From Candidatus Omnitrophota bacterium (GTDB taxonomy: Bacteria; Omnitrophota; Omnitrophia; Omnitrophales; Aquincolibacteriaceae), in the NCBI GenBank assembly GCA_018883425.1, contig VFQY01000013.1, forward strand, positions 1-34,972: 34,972 nt of DNA, written 5' to 3'. A program made the translations under genes and the position numbers. Of this stretch, positions 22,537 to 33,646 are shown piece after piece. Each line of letters starts with the position of its first letter. Position 1 is the stretch's first letter. The notes under the pieces were generated by a model. The model was not told the origin of the DNA. It made no database searches and saw only the letters and a list, made by a program, of their open reading frames with translations.

Positions 22537-24126
22537 TTACGCAGCCGCGGGCAACGCTGTTTTTTCTTTAACCTGACCCGAAACGGCAGATGTCTTGCCG
22601 GCCGGAGCGTTAACCAACTGATCTTTGTTATCAGGGCTGGCGGACGGATCCTTTGATCCGCTGACGGCATCCTTGCCGTCCTTGGCCTCTGTGTCACTCT
22701 CCGCCTCATTCCCTGCCGGCTGACCTTCCGTATCCACCATGGTCACCGTGATGAAAAAGAGCGTTTCAACTTTACTATTCTCGGTTGTATCTTGACGTTT
22801 TGATCGAAAGGCTTTGCCTAGTATGGGTAGATCTGATAAATAGGGAACCTTCGCCTCCGACGACGCTACGTTGTCAGACAAAAGGCCGCCTATGGCAATC
22901 GTTTGGCCGCTTTCAATGAGGACCTGAGTCTTAGCTTTAGTCACGGTGAACTCCGGAATAAAAAAACCTCCGTAGTTTCGCCCCGCGCCCGAAGCCACAT
23001 TGCTCACCTCCGGCATGAGATCGACCAAGATTTCATCAGCAGAATTAATGTGCGGCGTCACGTTAAGAACGACACCGACTTCCCGATAACTGAACCCGCT
23101 GATTTCAATACTGCCGGTATTCTCATTGCGTTCAAAGGTCGGCAACGGTATATCGCTGCCTACCTGGATGTTCGCTGGTTGATTATTCAAAACTACCACG
23201 CGGGGGTTTGACACAACTTTCGTATTCGATGAACTCTGCAGCATCTGAAGAATAGCGCTGAAATCCGTAAAATCGAGCGTTCCATACTCAAACGTCGATT
23301 CCGCCGTGACTCCAGGTAAGGGAAATCCTCTTCGATCGATAGGGTTGATAGCCGCTGTGCCAACCGGATCGTTCAGAGTCGGAAAGAACTGCTTGAAGAG
23401 CGGACTCGTCTTGTCCTGACCTCCGGCCTGGGTAAACGGAAAAGTGGTTGGCCTGCTTGACCCCGTAGCACCCGCCTGCAAATTCCATTGGATCCCCAGG
23501 TTCTCGGTCACACCCGCTCCCGTTCTTACGACCTTCGAGTCGATATAGGCCTGGGGTGTTTGCTTATCGAGACTCCTGATGACCTCTTCGATCCTATAGA
23601 GGTTGGTGGGCACGTCTGTCACAACGATCATGTTCGTCCGTTCGGCAACCTTAACTCTCCCTCTTTCCGTCAGCATGTCCTTGACGGCGTCAGCGATCTC
23701 CTGAGCTTTGGAGTAATCCAGAATAAATGTCTTCGTCGCGACCGGCTCTTGGGCCAAATTTTCTCGCGTCGTTATCCGGATCACGTTATCGTCACGCTCA
23801 TACACATAGCCGTAGGTCCGCAAGAGCACATCAAGCGCTTTTTGCCACTCAACTTCCTCGAGCCGTATGCTTACGTTGCCCTGAACCTCGGGCCCGCTAA
23901 CGATATTCATACCGCTCTTGATACTCATCACTCTTAAGACAGTGTGAATGTCTGCGTCCTTGAAGTCGAGGGAAACCTTAGTTTGAGCTTGTTCCTGCTC
24001 GGACACCGCCTCACCGATAGGCGCGCTCGGCGCTGATTCTTGGGCAAGTGCTGTCGGAGTTTTCAAAGCGCTGTTCGCAGAGGTTAAAACAAATGCGGTC
24101 AGAAGAAAAAGCCTTCTAAATTTCAT
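22537..24126 (-). CDS. pilQ: Type IV pilus secretin
   Basis: STN (VSLDFKDADIHTVLRVMSIKSGMNIV), N1 repeat, secretin domain (VGVVLNVTPHINSADEILVDLMPEVS...VLIESGQTIAIGGLLSD...VPYLSDLPILGKAFRS). Next to pilP, O, N and M. Confidence 0.92.
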   Translation of the reverse strand: MKFRRLFLLTAFVLTSANSALKTPTALAQESAPSAPIGEAVSEQEQAQTKVSLDFKDADIHTVLRVMSIKSGMNIVSGPEVQGNVSIRLEEVEWQKALDVLLRTYGYVYERDDNVIRITTRENLAQEPVATKTFILDYSKAQEIADAVKDMLTERGRVKVAERTNMIVVTDVPTNLYRIEEVIRSLDKQTPQAYIDSKVVRTGAGVTENLGIQWNLQAGATGSSRPTTFPFTQAGGQDKTSPLFKQFFPTLNDPVGTAAINPIDRRGFPLPGVTAESTFEYGTLDFTDFSAILQMLQSSSNTKVVSNPRVVVLNNQPANIQVGSDIPLPTFERNENTGSIEISGFSYREVGVVLNVTPHINSADEILVDLMPEVSNVASGAGRNYGGFFIPEFTVTKAKTQVLIESGQTIAIGGLLSDNVASSEAKVPYLSDLPILGKAFRSKRQDTTENSKVETLFFITVTMVDTEGQPAGNEAESDTEAKDGKDAVSGSKDPSASPDNKDQLVNAPAGKTSAVSGQVKEKTALPAAA

Positions 24127-24539
24127 GAATTCCCCGAGGAGTTGGCAACAACCTCTTCACGCAGCCATACCACTCTTTGTTCGTCATTTTGAGTGAGCAA
24201 TATTCTATCCTTTAAAATTTGGACAATCACCGCATCGCCGACAGAGTCCCCAACCTTCTTCATCTCTCCATCGATCAGAGCTATGGCTCCATGCCTGGGA
24301 TCTACGACAATCCCCTGAATCCCAAGCCTGGCTCTCGGTGCCTCTTGAGGGGCGTTCGGCGATGGAAATGTGCTCGGTTGGACCACTGGCACCATAGGAT
24401 CCCTATTGAGGGAGCTATCATACTGAACATCCTCTGCGAATGCTAGTCTAAAAAAGACATTGATCGAAAGAACTAGCCCCAGGACTGTCAAATTAAAAAA
24501 TCTGATGCGCAGCTTTCGGACTGTTTTAACCGTCGTCAT
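24123..24539 (-). CDS. pilP: PilP-like type IV pilus assembly protein
   Basis: Position between pilO and pilQ with 4-nt overlaps; RDPMVPV...; LGIQGIVVDPRHGAIALIDGEMKKVGDSVGDAVIVQILKDRILLTQND resembles a PilP/GspC HR-like domain. Confidence 0.7.
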   Translation of the reverse strand: MTTVKTVRKLRIRFFNLTVLGLVLSINVFFRLAFAEDVQYDSSLNRDPMVPVVQPSTFPSPNAPQEAPRARLGIQGIVVDPRHGAIALIDGEMKKVGDSVGDAVIVQILKDRILLTQNDEQRVVWLREEVVANSSGNS

Positions 24540-25141
24540 ACTTTCCTCTCTTTCGAGGAGACCGCAGTAATCGCGAGCGAGGCCGTATGCCGGGCCGGAT
24601 TAGCTGCATTCGGCTTCAACTCAAAAAGCTGGATTTTTAAAATCTTGGGGTACCCCTCTAAATCAGAGATGAATCGGCCGATGTCGTAATAGCCGCCTTC
24701 AAAAACAAAGTCGTAACGGTCAGCTTTCAATTCAGCCTCATAGGGATCCGGAAACTGGAACTTCTCATCGCTGGGCTTAGACGCAACAATAAAAACTTTG
24801 TTTCGATCAGCCAACTCGGCGACTCTCCCGAGAAGAAGCGATGTTTCGCCAGGTAAGAAGAGCCTTCCGCGTGTGAATTGTATATAATCTGTCAGCTCTT
24901 TTTTTTGTTTGATCCAACTTTTTTCATTTTTCTTGAGGTTTTCAACTTGAGCTATCCGCCCCTCAAAATCGGAAATGTTCTGTTTCATCTGAATCGATAC
25001 AAACCAAGCCGGATAACCGACCCAAAAGCAGAAAGCCACGAAAACACAAACTCCCAGCGCCGCCTTTACCTTCGTAGCGGAATTCATTTCCTTGATCCGC
25101 CGGGCTAAATCCTGCACGTTGATCTCAAATGGAGGTTTCAT
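24536..25141 (-). CDS. pilO: Type IV pilus inner-membrane assembly protein PilO
   Basis: N-terminal TM, coiled coil, then ferredoxin-like region (VAELADRNKVFIVASKPSD...DRYDFVFEGGYYDIGRFISDLEGYPKILKIQLFEL); pilM-N-O-P-Q synteny. Confidence 0.85.
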   Translation of the reverse strand: MKPPFEINVQDLARRIKEMNSATKVKAALGVCVFVAFCFWVGYPAWFVSIQMKQNISDFEGRIAQVENLKKNEKSWIKQKKELTDYIQFTRGRLFLPGETSLLLGRVAELADRNKVFIVASKPSDEKFQFPDPYEAELKADRYDFVFEGGYYDIGRFISDLEGYPKILKIQLFELKPNAANPARHTASLAITAVSSKERKV

Positions 25142-25770
25142 TTCTTTTTTCCGTTGTCCTGAGCCTTTTTATTCGTTTTCTTCTCGGCTTTTTTCTCGGT
25201 TTCGGGAACCGGCCACGAAAAAATCGCAGTGAACTCCGTCACTTCCGCAGACGCTACAACCTGTCTGGAAGTCGTGAGAGAAAGCTTAGCCCCTATCATC
25301 TTGCTTTTGAGACTATTGAGATAGGCCTCGATCAAAATGATGCTCGACGACTTTTTAGACGGCAAGCATAGGCCGCGCACCACCAAAGAACGGTTCTTCA
25401 AATTATTTTCCATTCGAACCGTTGTCAGCCATGCCGATTCAGGCAGAGAATCAGCAATCCAAACAAGCTGCCGGGTTAGACTCATATCCGATGCAACGAA
25501 TTTACTGAAGAAATCCTTCTCTTGCCTCAAATTCTTCTCAACATCGTTTTGGAGTTTCGTCAGAGCGCCGGATTGCGCGCTGAGCGACTGCCAGTGAGTT
25601 TCAGTTTTTCTAAGAACCGCTCGGGCATTGAGATACTCCCAGTAAAAAAAACACGTCAGCAAAACAAAGAAAACTACGGCACCGGCCAGGATTTTGACAA
25701 TCGGTACCTCTGGAGCAGGCTCTTTTTCCTCGATTCTGAGATCTTCAGGAAGGAGATTGATTTCGATCAT
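25138..25770 (-). CDS. pilN: Type IV pilus assembly protein PilN
   Basis: MIEINLLPEDLR PilN signature, single TM, synteny. Confidence 0.92.
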   Translation of the reverse strand: MIEINLLPEDLRIEEKEPAPEVPIVKILAGAVVFFVLLTCFFYWEYLNARAVLRKTETHWQSLSAQSGALTKLQNDVEKNLRQEKDFFSKFVASDMSLTRQLVWIADSLPESAWLTTVRMENNLKNRSLVVRGLCLPSKKSSSIILIEAYLNSLKSKMIGAKLSLTTSRQVVASAEVTEFTAIFSWPVPETEKKAEKKTNKKAQDNGKKK

Positions 25771-26813
25771 AGCTGCCTCAAACAGAGACCCAAGGCTATC
25801 GGCAAAAGACGCTTATTCTGCTCAAATTGACTCTTATCAATCTCGGAAGAAATCGTTACTTTACGGGAAATATCAACCTCTTCAGCAGGGACTGACAAAG
25901 CGGCTCCCAGGGTTTCGAGCAGAAAGCCTGAATCTGACACGCCGCCGATGAGATAAAGCTTTTCAATCGGTTTCCCATCAGGAAGATGACCTCGGTAATA
26001 TTCCAACGTCACCTTCAGATCACTGCAGAGATTCTCATAGCACTCACTGAGAACCTCTCGCACTTCGGGGCTGATCTCGACGTTGTTCGCGAGAACAGCT
26101 TGCGCATCGGCATCCGACAGTCCGAGCTTTCGCCTTAGCCGCTTCACAATATCGATACGTCCGAAAGATAAGTCCCGCATGAAGCGGGGTTTACCCTCCA
26201 TCATGACCGTGAGACTTGAAATTTCCTCGCCCATATCAAAAAGCCCCACAACCCCCTTACTTTCATCGGGATACAAGTACTCGAAAACATTCACCGCCGC
26301 CAAAGTGTCAATATCAATAAGCTCAACGTTGAGATTTGCATCCTGAAACATCTTGATGACTGAGTAAATTTCGTCCTTCTTGACTGCGACCAGGATCAAA
26401 TTGAGCATCCCTTGCCCGTCTGCGGGCGCCTCGTCGAGAATATGAAAATCGAGAAGAACCTCATCCAGCTTGAAGGGTATGTAATTTTCTGCTTCGTAGG
26501 TCAAAGCGCTTTTGAGTTCTTCAGCCTTCATACGGGGCATTTGCACGAAGCGCACGACAGCGCTTTGCCCTTTGAGAGAAACGCGGATTCTGTTCGGACT
26601 ATACCCCTTGGCATGGCAAGACTTGATCGTTTCCGCGGCGCGGCCTGAGTCTTCCGTGATTCGGATGAGATCAAACTTCTCAACACGAAGCTGTCCATCG
26701 GTTTGAAGCGCTTCAAGCAGAATGAGTCTCGACAGGTCAAAATCACACGCGAGTACCCTGCGGGCAGAATTTTTTTTGGGGGCCTTCAAGCCCGGCTTTT
26801 TCAGGAGTTTCAT
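25767..26813 (-). CDS. pilM: Type IV pilus assembly ATPase-fold protein PilM
   Basis: ALTYEAENYIPFKLDEVLLDFHIL; VGLFDMGEEISSLTVMMEGKPRFMRDLSFG; LYLIGGVSDSGFLLETLG: actin-like PilM/FtsA fold. Confidence 0.92.
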   Translation of the reverse strand: MKLLKKPGLKAPKKNSARRVLACDFDLSRLILLEALQTDGQLRVEKFDLIRITEDSGRAAETIKSCHAKGYSPNRIRVSLKGQSAVVRFVQMPRMKAEELKSALTYEAENYIPFKLDEVLLDFHILDEAPADGQGMLNLILVAVKKDEIYSVIKMFQDANLNVELIDIDTLAAVNVFEYLYPDESKGVVGLFDMGEEISSLTVMMEGKPRFMRDLSFGRIDIVKRLRRKLGLSDADAQAVLANNVEISPEVREVLSECYENLCSDLKVTLEYYRGHLPDGKPIEKLYLIGGVSDSGFLLETLGAALSVPAEEVDISRKVTISSEIDKSQFEQNKRLLPIALGLCLRQL

Positions 26814-26986: not shown

Positions 26987-27430
26987 TTACTCTTCGGCGG
27001 CGGCGGCACACCCTGCGTCGGACGCCGTACCTGCGATAACAGCGACACCTGTTTGGTCGATGCAGATAGAATCACGGTCATCAGCTGTGGCATTAAGGCT
27101 GTAGGTTTCCCCGGTCGTAAGATAGTTGATCGTATAACCGTTGCGAACACCGCCTTCACTCCAGGAACTCGCATCGAGATAAGGCGGAGTTGCCCCCGTG
27201 AGAGCGGCAATGTCATCCGGATAGGCAGGCGTGGCTTGCGCCGCACGGAAGCTCTCCGCAGCGGCACTGAATGCCCGCACATCGGAGCGCATCGCACCTA
27301 CCTGCGCGTTCTGACGGGAACGAACCAAGTTCGGGATCGCTATCGCGGCAAGTAGGCCGATGATGGCAACCACAATCATGATTTCAACGAGCGTAAAACC
27401 CTTTTCATTTAATTTTCTATGAGACAGCAT
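26987..27430 (-). CDS. Type IV major pilin/prepilin
   Basis: KLNEKG^FTLVEIMIVVAIIGLLAAIAIPNLVRSRQNAQ class III prepilin leader. Start refined to ATG 27428-27430 with GGAGGG SD; the ORF track start at 27499 adds an implausible extension. Confidence 0.95.
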   Translation of the reverse strand: MLSHRKLNEKGFTLVEIMIVVAIIGLLAAIAIPNLVRSRQNAQVGAMRSDVRAFSAAAESFRAAQATPAYPDDIAALTGATPPYLDASSWSEGGVRNGYTINYLTTGETYSLNATADDRDSICIDQTGVAVIAGTASDAGCAAAAEE

Positions 27431-27479
27431 AGTGAAACCCTCCGTTAGAATTTTTATGTTATTTGATGGACTACAATTC

Positions 27480-27509
27480 AATGTAACCACATGAAACATG
27501 ATTCGTCAA
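27480..27509 (-). promoter_or_regulatory. Candidate sigma70-type promoter for the pilin gene
   Basis: -35 TTGACG (27504-27509), 18-bp spacer, -10 TACATT (27480-27485). An AT-rich tract CTTAATATATTAATTTTAGTTTT sits just upstream (about 27517-27540), resembling an UP element. Predicted 5' UTR about 43 nt. Confidence 0.5.
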
Positions 27510-27775: not shown

Positions 27776-29008
27776 TCACTGGATATGCTGCGTCATGGTC
27801 AAGATGGGCAGAAAGAGCGCAATCACGATCCCCCCGATCACAACGCCCAAAAAGACGATGATCAGCGGTTCGATAAGGGAGGTCAAACCGTCCACAGCGG
27901 TATCCACCTGCGTATCGTAAAAATCGGCGATCTTGATCAGCATCTCTTCCAGCTCGCCAGTTTCTTCGCCCACGGCAATCATTCTTACCACCATTTGAGG
28001 AAAGACGTCGCTCTTGATGAGTTGACTCGATATTGTTTCACCTTTTTTTACCGAATCCATGAGGGCGAGAATCGTGTTCTCGATCCTCTTGTTACCGGAG
28101 GTCAGCGCCGTGATCTCGAGTGAGGGAAGAATAGCCACGCCGCTTTTGACGAGCGTCGCGAGGGTTCTGGAGAATTTACTCACAGCCACCTTAAGAAGCA
28201 AGGGACCGAAAACGGGCATTTTGATCGTGAACGAGTCCCAGGCTAATCGCCCGGGTTTGGTCTGTATAAATTGATAAAAACTGAATCCAGCGCCTGCGCA
28301 TCCCGCCAAACAAAGAAACCAGTTGGTCGATAAAAAACGGCTGGCGTCAATTAAAGCCTGCGTAATACCCGGAAGCGGCGCTCCAAGCCCTTCGAAAATC
28401 TCGGCAAATTTCGGAATCACAAAGGTCATCATCCCAACCGTGATCAGGATTGCAATAATGGTCACGGAGGCGGGGTACATCATCGCCGACTTTACTTTTT
28501 TCTGAAGAGCGCTGGACTTTTCCAGATAACTGGCAACGCGGTCGAGAATCTCTTCAAGACTTCCGCTCGTCTCACCCGCGCGGACCATGTTGATAAAAAG
28601 AACCGAAAAAACCTTGGCGTGTTTCTGCATCGCTTCAGAGAGACTTCGGCCGCTCTGCAGATCCTTGTGAATCTGCTTTAAAATCTCGATGAATTTTTGT
28701 TTCTCGACCTGATCCCCCAGAATGTCAATCGCCTGAATCAAGGGAATACCTGCGGAAACAAGAGTGGCCATCTGTCTTGAGAACACGACAAGGTCGTCTA
28801 ACTTAACCCCGCCTCCTTTACCTTTTTTGGGTCCGGCCTGCCCCTTGGAAAGACTGAATGCTTTCGTTTGCTTTAATTCATTGACCCGGACAATGATAAA
28901 TCCCTGCGAGCGCAGGGAGGCAACCAGCGTTGCGACGTCAGGCGACTCCTGAACCCCTGTTTGATCTTTGCCGGCTCGATCTTTGACCAGATACTCGAAT
29001 TGAGGCAT
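27776..29008 (-). CDS. pilC: Type IV pilus inner-membrane platform protein (GspF family)
   Basis: FEYLVKDRAGKDQTGVQE; VVFSRQMATLVSAGIPLIQAIDIL; GMMTFVIPKFAEIFEGLGAPLPGITQAL; FYDTQVDTAVDGLTSLIEPLIIVFLGVVIGGIVIALFLPI. Confidence 0.95.
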   Translation of the reverse strand: MPQFEYLVKDRAGKDQTGVQESPDVATLVASLRSQGFIIVRVNELKQTKAFSLSKGQAGPKKGKGGGVKLDDLVVFSRQMATLVSAGIPLIQAIDILGDQVEKQKFIEILKQIHKDLQSGRSLSEAMQKHAKVFSVLFINMVRAGETSGSLEEILDRVASYLEKSSALQKKVKSAMMYPASVTIIAILITVGMMTFVIPKFAEIFEGLGAPLPGITQALIDASRFLSTNWFLCLAGCAGAGFSFYQFIQTKPGRLAWDSFTIKMPVFGPLLLKVAVSKFSRTLATLVKSGVAILPSLEITALTSGNKRIENTILALMDSVKKGETISSQLIKSDVFPQMVVRMIAVGEETGELEEMLIKIADFYDTQVDTAVDGLTSLIEPLIIVFLGVVIGGIVIALFLPILTMTQHIQ

Positions 29009-29012
29009 GTGT

Positions 29013-30725
29013 TTACCTTTCCGCCGAACTTACGCGAAGAACCTCTTCCAGCGTCGTCAGGCCTTGCTTGAACAGACTGAATGCGTTCTCATAGAGAGTT
29101 TCCATTCCTTTTCTGATGGCCGCATCCTGAATGATTCGGCTGGATTTTCGCTGGATGATCAGCTGGCGAATTTCGCCGTCCACTTTCATGACCTCGATCG
29201 CGCCCAGGCGGCCGTAATAGCCCGTTTGATTGCACTTGGCGCAGCCGCTCCCATGATAGGCCGTCAATCCCTCCAAATCGCTTTCAGTCATGCCGCAGCG
29301 CCTGAGGACATCCTCGGGAACGCGGTAAGGTTTTTTGCAGAAAGGACAGATTCTTTTCATCAGCCTCTGAGCCGCAACACAGACAAGAGAAGACGCTATC
29401 AAGAAAGGCTCGACCCCCATATCGATCAGGCGCGTGACGGCCCCTGGAGCGCTGTTGGTGTGAAGGGTGCTGAATACCAGATGCCCCGTGAGGGCGGCTT
29501 TGACCGCGATGTCGGCGGTTTCCCCATCGCGGATTTCACCCACCAGAACGATGTCGGGACTTTGCCGCAAGAGAGACCTCAAACCGCTGGCGAAATTCAG
29601 GCCCACTTCGGGAATGACCTGCGTCTGGGTGATCCCCTCGACTTGATATTCGACCGGATCCTCGATCGTCATGATATTGCGATCCGGTGTATTCAGGGTT
29701 CCCAGAATGGTGTAAAGCGATGTGGATTTTCCGCTCCCGGTAGGCCCGGTCACGAGCATCATGCCATAGGGACTCTTGATGGCCTCCGCGATGACAGCGG
29801 TCGGTTTTTCGGTAAATCCTAATTTATCCAGACCCGATTTGAGTCCCGCTTTGTCCAAAACGCGCAGCACAATTTTCTCCCCATAGTATGTCGGAAGTAT
29901 CGAAACGCGGAAGTCAACTTCCCGCTGTTCCATCTTCAAACGGAACCGGCCGTCCTGAGGAACCCGCTTTTCCGTAATGTCGAGCTGAGAAATGATTTTC
30001 ATGCGGGCAACGAGCGAGGGATACATTTCGCGTGAATGAGAGAATGATTCTCTCAAGGCTCCGTCAATCCGGTAGCGGATTCGAAACTCATGCTCATACG
30101 GCTCGAAATGAATATCGGAAGCACGCGAACGGAGCGCGCCTTCGAGGATGAGATTCACCATGCGCACGACAGGAGCTTCTTCAGCCGAATCCCGGCCGAC
30201 GGGCTTATCTTCAGCAGCGCCCTTCTCGTCTTTTACAATCTGCAGACTTTCATCATCGATTTCCTCGATGATTTGATGGATATTCGCCGATTCCGTGGCG
30301 TGGGCATCAATGGCAGCCGTAATCGCTCGTGACGGCGCAAGCACCAAAGAAACCTCGCACTGGGTAATGCCCTTGAGATCATCCCTCATCATCAGATCAA
30401 AGGGATTACTGGCGGCTACCGTCAGCAACTTGCCGATACGCGAAACGGGGATGATTTGATAGCGCTCGATGAGCCTCGCCGGAATCGATTTCACAAGCTC
30501 CTTGGAGATCTTCAGCGCTTGAAGATTGATGACCGGGATCCCATACTCTTCACTTAAAATATCGGTGACCTCTTCATCCTTGAGGACCCCTGCGTCAACG
30601 GCTACCTGAAAAATGCTTTTTTTTCCGGCTAGCGCCTGACCTTTGAGCTCGATCAGCTGTTTTGAGGTCAGCCGTCCGGCTGCGACCATCTTCTCCAGAA
30701 GCGTCTCTTTGGAAAGCTGAATCAT
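29013..30725 (-). CDS. pilB: PilB/GspE-type assembly ATPase (paralog 1)
   Basis: N-terminal MshEN-like fold, Walker A GPTGSGKST, Asp box ...IMTIEDPVEYQ, SLLRQSPDIVLVGEIRDGETADIAV, STLHTNSAPGAVTRL, C4 zinc motif CPFC...CAKC. Confidence 0.93.
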   Translation of the reverse strand: MIQLSKETLLEKMVAAGRLTSKQLIELKGQALAGKKSIFQVAVDAGVLKDEEVTDILSEEYGIPVINLQALKISKELVKSIPARLIERYQIIPVSRIGKLLTVAASNPFDLMMRDDLKGITQCEVSLVLAPSRAITAAIDAHATESANIHQIIEEIDDESLQIVKDEKGAAEDKPVGRDSAEEAPVVRMVNLILEGALRSRASDIHFEPYEHEFRIRYRIDGALRESFSHSREMYPSLVARMKIISQLDITEKRVPQDGRFRLKMEQREVDFRVSILPTYYGEKIVLRVLDKAGLKSGLDKLGFTEKPTAVIAEAIKSPYGMMLVTGPTGSGKSTSLYTILGTLNTPDRNIMTIEDPVEYQVEGITQTQVIPEVGLNFASGLRSLLRQSPDIVLVGEIRDGETADIAVKAALTGHLVFSTLHTNSAPGAVTRLIDMGVEPFLIASSLVCVAAQRLMKRICPFCKKPYRVPEDVLRRCGMTESDLEGLTAYHGSGCAKCNQTGYYGRLGAIEVMKVDGEIRQLIIQRKSSRIIQDAAIRKGMETLYENAFSLFKQGLTTLEEVLRVSSAER

Positions 30726-32479
30726 GAAGCCTCGTCTTTCTCAGAAGCATCATCCGCCGTAACACGAAAAACCTCATCAAGCGAAGTATCTCCGGCGGCC
30801 GCCTTCGACAGTGCGCACTGACGCAGCGTCGTCATCCCGAGCTCGCGGGCTTTAAACTTGATGGCTTCTGCACTCTCACCTTTCATGATCAGGTCCGACA
30901 CGGGTTTGGTCATTTCCAAAATTTCCGTGATCACAGTTCGGCCCGAATAGCCCGATCCTCGGCATGCAGGACATCCCTTAGGCTGGTAAAAAACATGCTC
31001 CGAATATGCTCCCCCAAGGCGCTGAAGCGCTTCATCCGGCAGATCGTAAGGCACCCGGCATTTCGCGCATAGGCGCCTCATGAGCCTCTGAGCGGAAATC
31101 ATATTCACTGTTGACGCAATGAGGAAGGGCTCAAGACCCATATTGACCATGCGGGTGATCGAACTTGCCGCATCATTGGTGTGCAGCGTGCTGAGCACAA
31201 GGTGTCCGGTGAGCGCGGCTTTCACAGCGATGTCGAGAGTGTCATTGTCGCGAATTTCACCGATCAGAATAATGTCAGGATCCTGACGGAGAATGGACCG
31301 CAGCGCCGCCGGGAAGGTAAGCCCTACGGCATCACGCACATTGACCTGGTTGATGCCGGGAAGCTGATATTCAACGGGATCCTCGACAGTCGTGATGTTG
31401 ACCTCGGGAGCTGAGAGGTATTTTAAAACCGAATACAGCGTCGTGGTCTTTCCGCTGCCCGTGGGTCCGGTAACCAGAAGCATCCCGTGAGGACGCCGCG
31501 CTGTATCCCTGATAATTTGCTGCTCCCTTTCATTGAAGCCCAGCTTGGAAATATCATGTCCCTGAGAGGATGTGTCGAGAATTCGCAAACAGACCTTTTC
31601 TCCGAAGGTTGTCGGAAGTATAGAAACACGCATGTCGACTTGCCTGCGGTCGGCTTTCACTTTGAAACGGCCGTCCTGAGGAACCCGGTGTTCGGCGATG
31701 TCCAAATCACTCATCACCTTGATGCGGGATACAATCGCGGTGGCTAGAGATTTCGGAGGACAGACCACTTCTTCGAGGAGTCCATCGACGCGCGCTCTCA
31801 CTCTTACATGGTTTTCCCACGGCTCGATAAAAATATCACTCGCCTTGCGTTTGATTCCTTCGATGAGCAGGCGGTTTACAAGCTTGATGACGGGAGACTC
31901 GTACGCCACTTTGAGGAGCTGAGAGGTCTGGGCTTCGGCGCCTTCCTGGTCCTGCGCAATCTCCTCAACGATCCGGCCCATCTCCTTTTCGTAATCCATG
32001 GCCGGAGAGGACTGCACGCTTTCAGCGGCCGCGGCGGCCTCCGGGGAATAGTATTTTTGGATGTAGCGTTTGAGAATGCTGACTTGAGAGACCGCCGGCC
32101 GGACTCGCATCTTGGTCACAGCCTGAAGTTCATCGATTGCGCGGAAATTCATCGGATTTGCGAAGGCTACCGTCAGGGTCTTTTCAAATAACGTGATCGG
32201 GAGAACTGTGTATTTCTCCGCAAGATTCCTAGGAACGAGTTTGAGAACCGATTGTTCGATGACAAAGATTGAGGGATTGACCGATGAAAAACCGAAGTGA
32301 CTGCAGAGGCATTGGACCAAAAGCTTTTCGTCGCACTTGCCTTTGCGGATAAGAATATCCAGAAAAGACTCCCGCGTCTCTCCCTGTTCACGAACGGCGT
32401 CATGCATGTCCGCTTCGGACACCGCCCCCTCCGCCACAAGCAGACCCCTGAGGTCTGTCGAAGACTTTTCTGGAGCCAC
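30722..32479 (-). CDS. pilB: PilB/GspE-type assembly ATPase (paralog 2)
   Basis: Walker A GPTGSGKTTTLYSVL, ITTVEDPVEYQLPGINQVNV, ILRQDPDIILIGEIRDNDTLDIAV, STLHTNDAASSITRM, CAKC...CPAC. Confidence 0.93.
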   Translation of the reverse strand: MAPEKSSTDLRGLLVAEGAVSEADMHDAVREQGETRESFLDILIRKGKCDEKLLVQCLCSHFGFSSVNPSIFVIEQSVLKLVPRNLAEKYTVLPITLFEKTLTVAFANPMNFRAIDELQAVTKMRVRPAVSQVSILKRYIQKYYSPEAAAAAESVQSSPAMDYEKEMGRIVEEIAQDQEGAEAQTSQLLKVAYESPVIKLVNRLLIEGIKRKASDIFIEPWENHVRVRARVDGLLEEVVCPPKSLATAIVSRIKVMSDLDIAEHRVPQDGRFKVKADRRQVDMRVSILPTTFGEKVCLRILDTSSQGHDISKLGFNEREQQIIRDTARRPHGMLLVTGPTGSGKTTTLYSVLKYLSAPEVNITTVEDPVEYQLPGINQVNVRDAVGLTFPAALRSILRQDPDIILIGEIRDNDTLDIAVKAALTGHLVLSTLHTNDAASSITRMVNMGLEPFLIASTVNMISAQRLMRRLCAKCRVPYDLPDEALQRLGGAYSEHVFYQPKGCPACRGSGYSGRTVITEILEMTKPVSDLIMKGESAEAIKFKARELGMTTLRQCALSKAAAGDTSLDEVFRVTADDASEKDEAS

Positions 32480-32483
32480 ACCC

Positions 32484-32966
32484 TCACCCGCCTTTTTTTA
32501 GGCCGCTGCCCGGCTGTTTTTTTTCTCCGGAGAAAATGAGATCCAAAGCACCGAGTATTTCCAAAGGCGTTGAAAGAAATATTTGCACACGGGTCTTGAG
32601 CTTCGCGCGCAGTTTCTCAAAGACTTGTTCAGAGAGAGGCTCGCTGGACGCCACAGATGCGCGGCGTTCATCTGCATCAAAGAGCACCAGTATGTTTTCT
32701 CGGCAAAAGTCCTCTTCTAAGTTGCGTGCGCTCTGGGAATTAACGGCATACTGGTTAAGCGGAACATAGGGTAAATGCAGCTGTCTGCCCAGAAAACTCA
32801 CCAGAACTTCTTCCGTCAAATGCCCCTGCTGAATGAGAATCTGGCCCAATTGCCCGCCCTGACCTTTTTGCTGTTCGAGAGCCTGATTCAGGGTCTCCCG
32901 GCTGACGAGCCCCTCTTCCACAAGCATTTCACCTAACTGTCTCTTGCCCTTGTCTTTATCACCCAT
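32484..32966 (-). CDS. Stand-alone MshEN/GspE-N-like domain protein
   Basis: Tandem motifs LGEMLVEEGLVSRETLNQALEQQ and LGQILIQQGHLTEEVLVSFLGRQ, followed by LHLPYVPLNQYAVNSQSARNL. No Walker motifs. Start refined from 32990 to ATG 32964-32966 (MGDKDKGK...). Confidence 0.75.
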   Translation of the reverse strand: MGDKDKGKRQLGEMLVEEGLVSRETLNQALEQQKGQGGQLGQILIQQGHLTEEVLVSFLGRQLHLPYVPLNQYAVNSQSARNLEEDFCRENILVLFDADERRASVASSEPLSEQVFEKLRAKLKTRVQIFLSTPLEILGALDLIFSGEKKQPGSGLKKGG

Positions 32967-32974
32967 AATCCCGA

Positions 32975-33003
32975 AGTATAGCCCCCTCATAAATCATTCG
33001 CAA
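32975..33003 (-). promoter_or_regulatory. Candidate sigma70-type promoter of the pilB/pilC transcription unit
   Basis: -35 TTGCGA (32998-33003), exactly 17-bp spacer, -10 TATACT (32975-32980), directly upstream of the MshEN-like ORF. Confidence 0.5.
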
Positions 33004-33380
33004 TGGCTGAAACGATATTTTTGATAACTTAAAAGAGTTTTTGCTAGCACTTAAACCGAATTGATCAGGCTTGCTAACGCAGCATCTGGACTAAAATGAT
33101 CCTAAAGTCCTTTGAGGAAATAATTTAGAGCTCACTTTCCCTCACTGGGGAGAATTCGCACTCTCTCGTCGGCGCTCGTCAAGATGACAGGTTTGGCCGA
33201 GGACGAAAGTCTTTCAGCTGGCTCGTCTTTCGCGGAAGCTGCTGAGAACGAGCTGTCTCTAGGTTCCCTGCGGCTCTTCCATTGTCCCACTCCTTTGACC
33301 CTAGGGCGTTTCGCTGCCCTCGTCTGAATCACCTCTCCGGCCGTGCTGGGATGCTGTGTTCGAATCATCGAATAAGACAC

Positions 33381-33417
33381 CCTGTGAGTCCCTGAGGTCT
33401 GGACACCCTCTCACAGG
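33381..33417. repeat. Perfect 8-bp inverted repeat in the 33.0-33.6 kb interval
   Basis: CCTGTGAG (33381-33388)-21 nt-CTCACAGG (33410-33417). Confidence 0.5.
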
Positions 33418-33646
33418 AAATATCCCGCAAGTTTTTTTGACAGGCCTTGAGCGAATGAGCGGGCCCCCGAGTCTTGACCTGTAATTTAAACGCGCGAGGA
33501 CCTGCTCGACATTTTTCTCATGAAGTATTCTGCGTGAACACTGCATCCGCGGTGACTGCCTCGGGCGCCCTGTGGGTAGGACCCGATGCCTCTTATGGCC
33601 CAAGCTGCGGCTGTGACTGCGCTCAACGTGCCCTTGTCGGGCTGTT

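Follow-up and report, generated by a model that had tools for sequence, protein, structure and literature searches.

A stand-alone MshEN protein encoded beside two PilB-type ATPases with degenerate MshEN domains: a candidate trans-acting c-di-GMP receptor of Omnitrophota type IVa pili

In the window, a 34,972-nucleotide stretch of DNA from a Candidatus Omnitrophota bacterium (contig VFQY01000013.1), a complete MshEN domain is encoded as a separate protein, here named SOLO, immediately ahead of two PilB-type ATPases. Taking gene order, residue conservation and known systems together, SOLO is on balance probably a c-di-GMP receptor subunit that works in trans in the type IVa pilus machine of Omnitrophota, an MshEN-type counterpart of FimX/PilZ. 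In the systems studied, the MshEN sensor and the motor form one polypeptide; their separation across Omnitrophota means that sensor, motor and contact can each be purified and tested apart, which bears on whether and how the domain controls pilus motors. The features concerned were as follows.

32975..33003, minus strand: promoter TTGCGA-17-TATACT, its -10 box ending 8 nt before the SOLO ATG (near-leaderless start)
32484..32966, minus strand: stand-alone MshEN protein SOLO, 160 aa, with orthologues phylum-wide
32868..32939, minus strand: SOLO c-di-GMP motif I, aa 10-33 (Gln10 replacing Arg, L11, G12, L26, L30, Q33)
32781..32852, minus strand: SOLO c-di-GMP motif II, aa 39-62 (Gln39, L40, G41, L55, L59, Q62)
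32520..32777, minus strand: SOLO MshEN_C subdomain, aa 64-149 (Pfam MshEN)
30722..32479, minus strand: PilB1, first PilB-type ATPase, 585 aa, with a GTG start 4 nt past the SOLO stop
29013..30725, minus strand: PilB2, second PilB-type ATPase, 570 aa, with an ATG start and a 4-nt overlap with the PilB1 stop

The sequence-only reading of this DNA had described two canonical tandem MshEN motifs in ORF 32484-32966, and both were present. Motif I read QLGEMLVEEGLVSRETLNQALEQQ (aa 10-33) and motif II QLGQILIQQGHLTEEVLVSFLGRQ (aa 39-62), separated by the spacer KGQGG in a 24+5+24 layout that equals the published MshEN spacing. In the HMM search which that reading had proposed, SOLO passed both family models, scoring 49.7 bits against Pfam MshEN (cut-off 23.1; the model takes in MshEN_C) and 60.5 bits against NCBIfam NF053729 'c-di-GMP_motif' (cut-off 38; aa 10-62), with E values of 1e-13 to 1e-17, far above chance. 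The ligand residues Gly11, Gln32, Gly40 and Gln61 (MshE numbering) were all found; SOLO also had both Leu triads complete (MshE 10/54/58 and 39/25/29), as is usual in its family. Structure prediction of the protein alone, likewise proposed earlier, produced a high-confidence AlphaFold model (pLDDT 90.7; 36 sequences) with the two-subdomain MshEN fold, a four-helix bundle plus an alpha/beta subdomain. Its top PDB match was the c-di-GMP-bound MshE of V. cholerae (5htl; E 2.7e-11, TM 0.78 by target), the other best match being Thermus PilF GSPII-B with c-di-GMP. MshEN was the only Pfam domain in SOLO, EAL and PilZ domains being absent, and no T2SSE motor is fused to it: the window, like each relative checked, has a stop codon and then a separate PilB1 start.

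The earlier claim that two full-length ATPases with degenerate motifs lie next downstream was confirmed, but a degenerate MshEN domain is present in each of them rather than absent. PilB1 and PilB2 scored 456 bits each against T2SSE, as complete PilB-type ATPases, and 646 and 655 bits against TIGR02538 (cut-off 675.65). Both kept MshEN_C (59.8 and 66.0 bits), while against NF053729 (cut-off 38) PilB1 reached 23.3 bits and PilB2 was not listed. In the window both proteins had intact motor motifs and had lost the MshEN_N ligand residues. Walker A was intact in 132/132 PilB1 and 124/124 PilB2 copies, the catalytic-Glu box and Walker B were kept, and the zinc cysteines were mostly kept. With these motor motifs intact in PilB1 and PilB2 alike, it appears to be the sensor that was lost and not the motor. 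The model of the PilB1 N-domain most closely resembled the N-domain of X. citri PilB in its solved complex with PilZ. At two loci (L087, 3618-7130, plus strand, and L118), PilB1 and PilB2 formed a single 1170-aa frame, either a natural fusion or a missing stop, which hints that both motors may work jointly.

The contrast between stand-alone proteins and motors was then quantified in MshE numbering over 148 non-identical Omnitrophota loci and 271 neighboring PilB copies. All four ligand residues (Gly11, Gln32, Gly40 and Gln61) were found in 140/148 stand-alone proteins and three of the four in the remaining 8; Gly40 and Gln61 were each present in 148/148, Gln32 in 141/148 and Gly11 in 147/148, the exception having a truncated start. 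By the same alignment, 0/271 motors had all four residues, so that the full retention of MshEN motifs by the ATPases, named beforehand as an outcome that would count against the proposal, was not seen. Gly11 occurred in at most 2 of the 271 copies, one of them probably misaligned, and three of the four residues occurred in 9/131 second PilBs. Among the stand-alone proteins the entropy of Gly11, Gly40 and Gln61 was zero; in the motors it was 2-3 bits, which places these columns among the variable ones. In MshE, the substitutions G11L and G40I abolish stabilization by c-di-GMP (PMC5013675), and in Thermus GSPII-A small motif deviations contribute to non-binding (PMC12002112). In Omnitrophota other than that of the window, the ATPases were less degenerate, yet still without the motif glycines; both PilBs of Candidatus Velamenicoccus archaeovorus, for example, passed NF053729 (51.2 and 42.8 versus 38) with the motif glycines still absent. 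Because of these proteins and of the second PilBs with three of four residues, the loss of c-di-GMP binding by the motor N-domains of Omnitrophota is to be read as a prediction from glycine loss. By the same token, PilB annotations that pass the MshEN HMM may not bind c-di-GMP.

One caveat raised earlier was that Gln replaces Arg at the start of the first motif and that ligand binding might be altered. In SOLO of the window, Gln in fact opens both motifs (KRQLG and GGQLG; MshE positions 9 and 38), and neither Arg nor the alternatives Lys and Leu occupy the first motif position. The caveat lost weight at position 9, where the family has Gln, Arg or Lys and Gln is the commonest residue (76/148 orthologues), so that Gln there is normal. 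It held at position 38, which is Leu in 140/148 orthologues and Gln only in the window, whose SOLO thus looks atypical at this site. The leading residue stacks on the base, and in Thermus PilF GSPII-B Arg is dispensable, Lys or Leu can replace it, and a Leu that opens motif II goes with nanomolar affinity (PMC11731258). The affinity of the window's SOLO for c-di-GMP may differ from that of its relatives.

A survey of relatives for the split arrangement, as the sequence-only reading had suggested, found it conserved across the phylum. A SOLO relative was found in 96/97 related genomes, the best match being mostly a short stand-alone frame, and the order stand-alone gene, PilB1, PilB2, PilC recurred phylum-wide (60 fetched loci). 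Upstream of SOLO lay CinA-ThpR in the window's lineage and PilT in many other Omnitrophota. In Candidatus V. archaeovorus the orthologue occupies 7078-7524 of L069, minus strand. Among 154 loci with the stand-alone gene, 146 had a downstream ATPase and 135 had two, the rest being mostly cut by contig ends; the spacing to the downstream ATPase had a median of 10 nt and was 60 nt or less in 108/146. The stand-alone gene and PilB1 were lost together: co-occurrence over the 97 genomes gave 14/3/4/76 (Fisher 6e-11), and 14 genomes without the stand-alone gene were also without a PilB1 orthologue. Six of the seven discordant genomes had contig-end breaks (G008, G023, G026, G036, G044 and G056), and the seventh (G077) was a threshold effect, both ATPases being present below the threshold used. 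Beyond Omnitrophota, where plasmid records only were covered, the 12 matches were mostly annotated fused ATPases or glycosyltransferases. No SOLO-PilB fusion was found among the loci surveyed (Rosetta-stone test); long open frames at two of them (G065 and G020) resolved to separate ORFs.

The remainder of the locus, on the same strand, read as follows.

27776..29008, minus strand: PilC platform protein (T2SSF, 217.8 bits)
26987..27499, minus strand: type IV pilin (N_methyl, 34 bits, with the N-methylation motif), probable ATG start near 27430
25767..26813, minus strand: PilM (PilM_2, 131.8 bits)
24123..25770, minus strand: three ORFs in the pilN/pilO/pilP positions, with no Pfam match and named by position and size only
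22537..24126, minus strand: PilQ-type secretin (Secretin, 144.2 bits)

PilB, PilC, a pilin, PilM and a secretin thus occur together, as in a type IVa pilus locus. Proteins with MshEN fused to many domain types are known, the N-terminal ring of PilB is thought to attach to the PilM stator, and the Pseudomonas PilB also lacks a c-di-GMP motif and is under FimX-PilZ control in trans. PilZ and FimX, the latter a c-di-GMP receptor, control the PilB of Xanthomonas citri, which has no c-di-GMP motif (PMC8389850, PMC11656802). The Omnitrophota locus has the same anatomy, though anatomy only: a separate predicted c-di-GMP receptor next to a PilB with a degenerate site of its own. As in X. citri PilB-PilZ-FimX (7LKO; PMC8389850) and Pseudomonas PilB-FimX, a folded non-binding PilB MshEN domain would be controlled in trans by a separate receptor; the difference is that FimX carries an EAL domain and acts partly via PilZ, whereas the Omnitrophota receptor would be an MshEN paralogue serving two PilBs. 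V. cholerae MshE (5HTL; PMC5013675) shares with SOLO the two 24-residue motifs, the 5-residue spacer, the Gly/Leu/Gln contacts and the MshEN_N plus MshEN_C organization, but in MshE the domain and the ATPase under its control form a single chain, and Arg9 and Arg38 are Gln in SOLO. Thermus thermophilus PilF GSPII-B (8PDK; PMC11731258), a fold match, has an Arg-free site with Leu opening motif II, as in 140/148 of the SOLO family; in PilF it belongs to a series of three such domains joined to one ATPase, and the window's SOLO has Gln in place of that Leu. In Acetoanaerobium noterae (L206), a PilB-PilT-PilC operon with canonical motifs has MshEN fused to a single 559-aa PilB. Control of PilB in trans by FimX/PilZ is already known; in the literature searched, which did not take in the supplementary tables of PMC5013675, no pilus operon was described that pairs a stand-alone MshEN subunit with motors devoid of the site.

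Based on these comparisons, we propose that an ancestral MshEN-bearing system was divided, with ligand binding kept in a separate paralogue, and that the MshEN domains of the tandem motors PilB1 and PilB2 would have kept the fold and lost the glycine and glutamine contacts. SOLO would be a soluble one-domain protein that binds one c-di-GMP, and loaded SOLO would dock on the N-terminal ring of PilB or on the PilM stator. Once docked, and with c-di-GMP high, it would license or stabilize the extension of pili, in the way that FimX-PilZ acts in trans. Action of SOLO in trans on the PilB ATPases is plausible by this analogy. A more specific model can be entertained only tentatively, namely, that Omnitrophota type IVa pili are powered by a three-part motor made of two diverged PilBs, possibly in a mixed hexamer, and a separate MshEN protein bearing the sole c-di-GMP site. 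If that were true, c-di-GMP would gate pilus extension via a detachable regulatory subunit, which was not reported for MshEN/PilB systems in the literature searched. Candidatus V. archaeovorus expresses type-4a pili, in a study that makes no mention of c-di-GMP (PMC10066038). Attachment during predation or symbiosis is the presumed role of Omnitrophota pili, and the finding would place c-di-GMP at that step, suggesting that a dedicated add-on sensor governs the pili of these predatory or symbiotic bacteria.

Operon linkage argues for membership of the pilus locus and not for contact with PilB, so that PilM, PilC or an unrelated target is possible. It is conceivable, though rather unlikely, that SOLO binds c-di-GMP and acts on PilM, PilC, localization or another target, the motors having lost binding for unrelated reasons. 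The stand-alone proteins have surface features (the conserved PYLPLxNY, F130 and D97) that differ from those of the motor N-domains, and contact of the GSPII/GspE N-domain with the PilM/GspL stator is known (PMC11656802). Against this, adjacency is tightest to PilB1, at the 10-nt median given above, and a transfer of role is the simplest account of the reciprocal loss in both motors.

The ligand was also considered. ATP, which the sequence-only reading had allowed as an alternative, found no support, the motif being the c-di-GMP one (PMC5013675); the ligand of SOLO should be c-di-GMP and not ATP. It is distinctly improbable that SOLO instead binds another cyclic dinucleotide (cGAMP), or holds c-di-GMP as a permanent structural cofactor and hence forms no switch. 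MshEN can bind cGAMP too (PMC5013675), the nanomolar GSPII-B has been argued to be always loaded (PMC11731258), and, with Leu38 prevailing, very high affinity is predicted for most family members. This is countered by the c-di-GMP character of the motif and by the GGDEF (diguanylate cyclase) domains found in 97/97 genomes searched, with 11 GGDEF proteins in the window's genome; since every genome has them, absence of GGDEF cannot discriminate the ligand. The window's genome also encodes 8 PilZ proteins over the cut-off, and SOLO is therefore not the only possible c-di-GMP receptor there. Apart from the leading Gln residues, no other MshEN in that genome has two canonical motifs: those of the two other pilus/secretion ATPases are degenerate, and that of a GGDEF-MshEN protein has lost Gln61.

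Another claim that did not stand was that SOLO is a module detached from the motor, since both motors keep a full MshEN domain of their own. In a FastTree analysis of 101 MshEN domains, in which the 149-column alignment allows moderate support only, a single clade (local support 0.87) took in all the stand-alone copies (35/35) and none of the motor N-domains, and the PilB1 and PilB2 N-domains grouped together (0.88). This pattern suggests a split that is old and vertically inherited rather than repeated fission, and SOLO appears to be an old separate paralogue and not a piece of either motor; fission of one PilB N-domain was rejected on the same grounds. That SOLO is a fragment of a broken pilB or an assembly-split gene can practically be dismissed, in spite of a seven-A run just ahead of its stop and the different frame of PilB1, given the same separate gene at 148 non-identical loci, a stop and a new start in varied frames in every relative checked (with the stop at the same place in L045), the N-domains kept by both PilBs and the single stand-alone clade. 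The assembly frameshift that the sequence-only reading had named as a possible refutation was thus itself refuted by the phylum-wide survey.

The start of SOLO is most likely at 32966, preferred because a longer ATG at 32990 sits upstream of the -10 box. TTGNNA-17-TATACT lay directly upstream of the stand-alone gene in 12 further loci (L040, L041, L043, L045, L049, L059, L067, L072, L076, L095, L196 and L197), against 0.38 expected over 155 loci, and in the nearest relatives the -10 box ended 8-10 nt ahead of the start codon. From this conserved promoter, SOLO is first in its operon in this lineage, and the earlier statement that it is translated first holds to that extent. The promoter was unusually uniform, with the near-leaderless start seen in the window's family. 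An Rfam search of the conserved ~680-850-bp upstream gap gave no regulatory RNA, and this candidate was set aside when alignment identified a HhH-GPD DNA glycosylase gene (endonuclease III / 3-methyladenine glycosylase type), which is decayed in the window (32967-33646, minus strand) and intact in 16 relatives at the same place, between ThpR and the stand-alone MshEN gene (227-283 aa; e.g., 7571-8254 of L051).

Two further proteins of the window's own genome combine these domains differently. On contig C106 (L181, 1829-3001, minus strand), a GGDEF protein has a C-terminal MshEN and possibly a receiver domain ahead, where the contig end cuts it; its motif I is canonical, and Lys replaces Gln61 in motif II. 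On contig C51 (L180, 1279-3558, minus strand), a 759-aa PilB/GspE-type ATPase carries a degenerate MshEN at its N terminus and, at its C terminus, a PilZ domain bearing the RxxxR and NxSxxG motifs; its gene lies beside one for PilC and one resembling the F/V-type ATP synthase beta subunit. Full-length matches to this ATPase, PilZ included, were found in ~16 relatives, some of them genomes without the stand-alone MshEN (G004, G016, G017, G027 and G041). Judged from its domains, this ATPase appears to be a second way to equip a pilus motor with a new c-di-GMP sensor.
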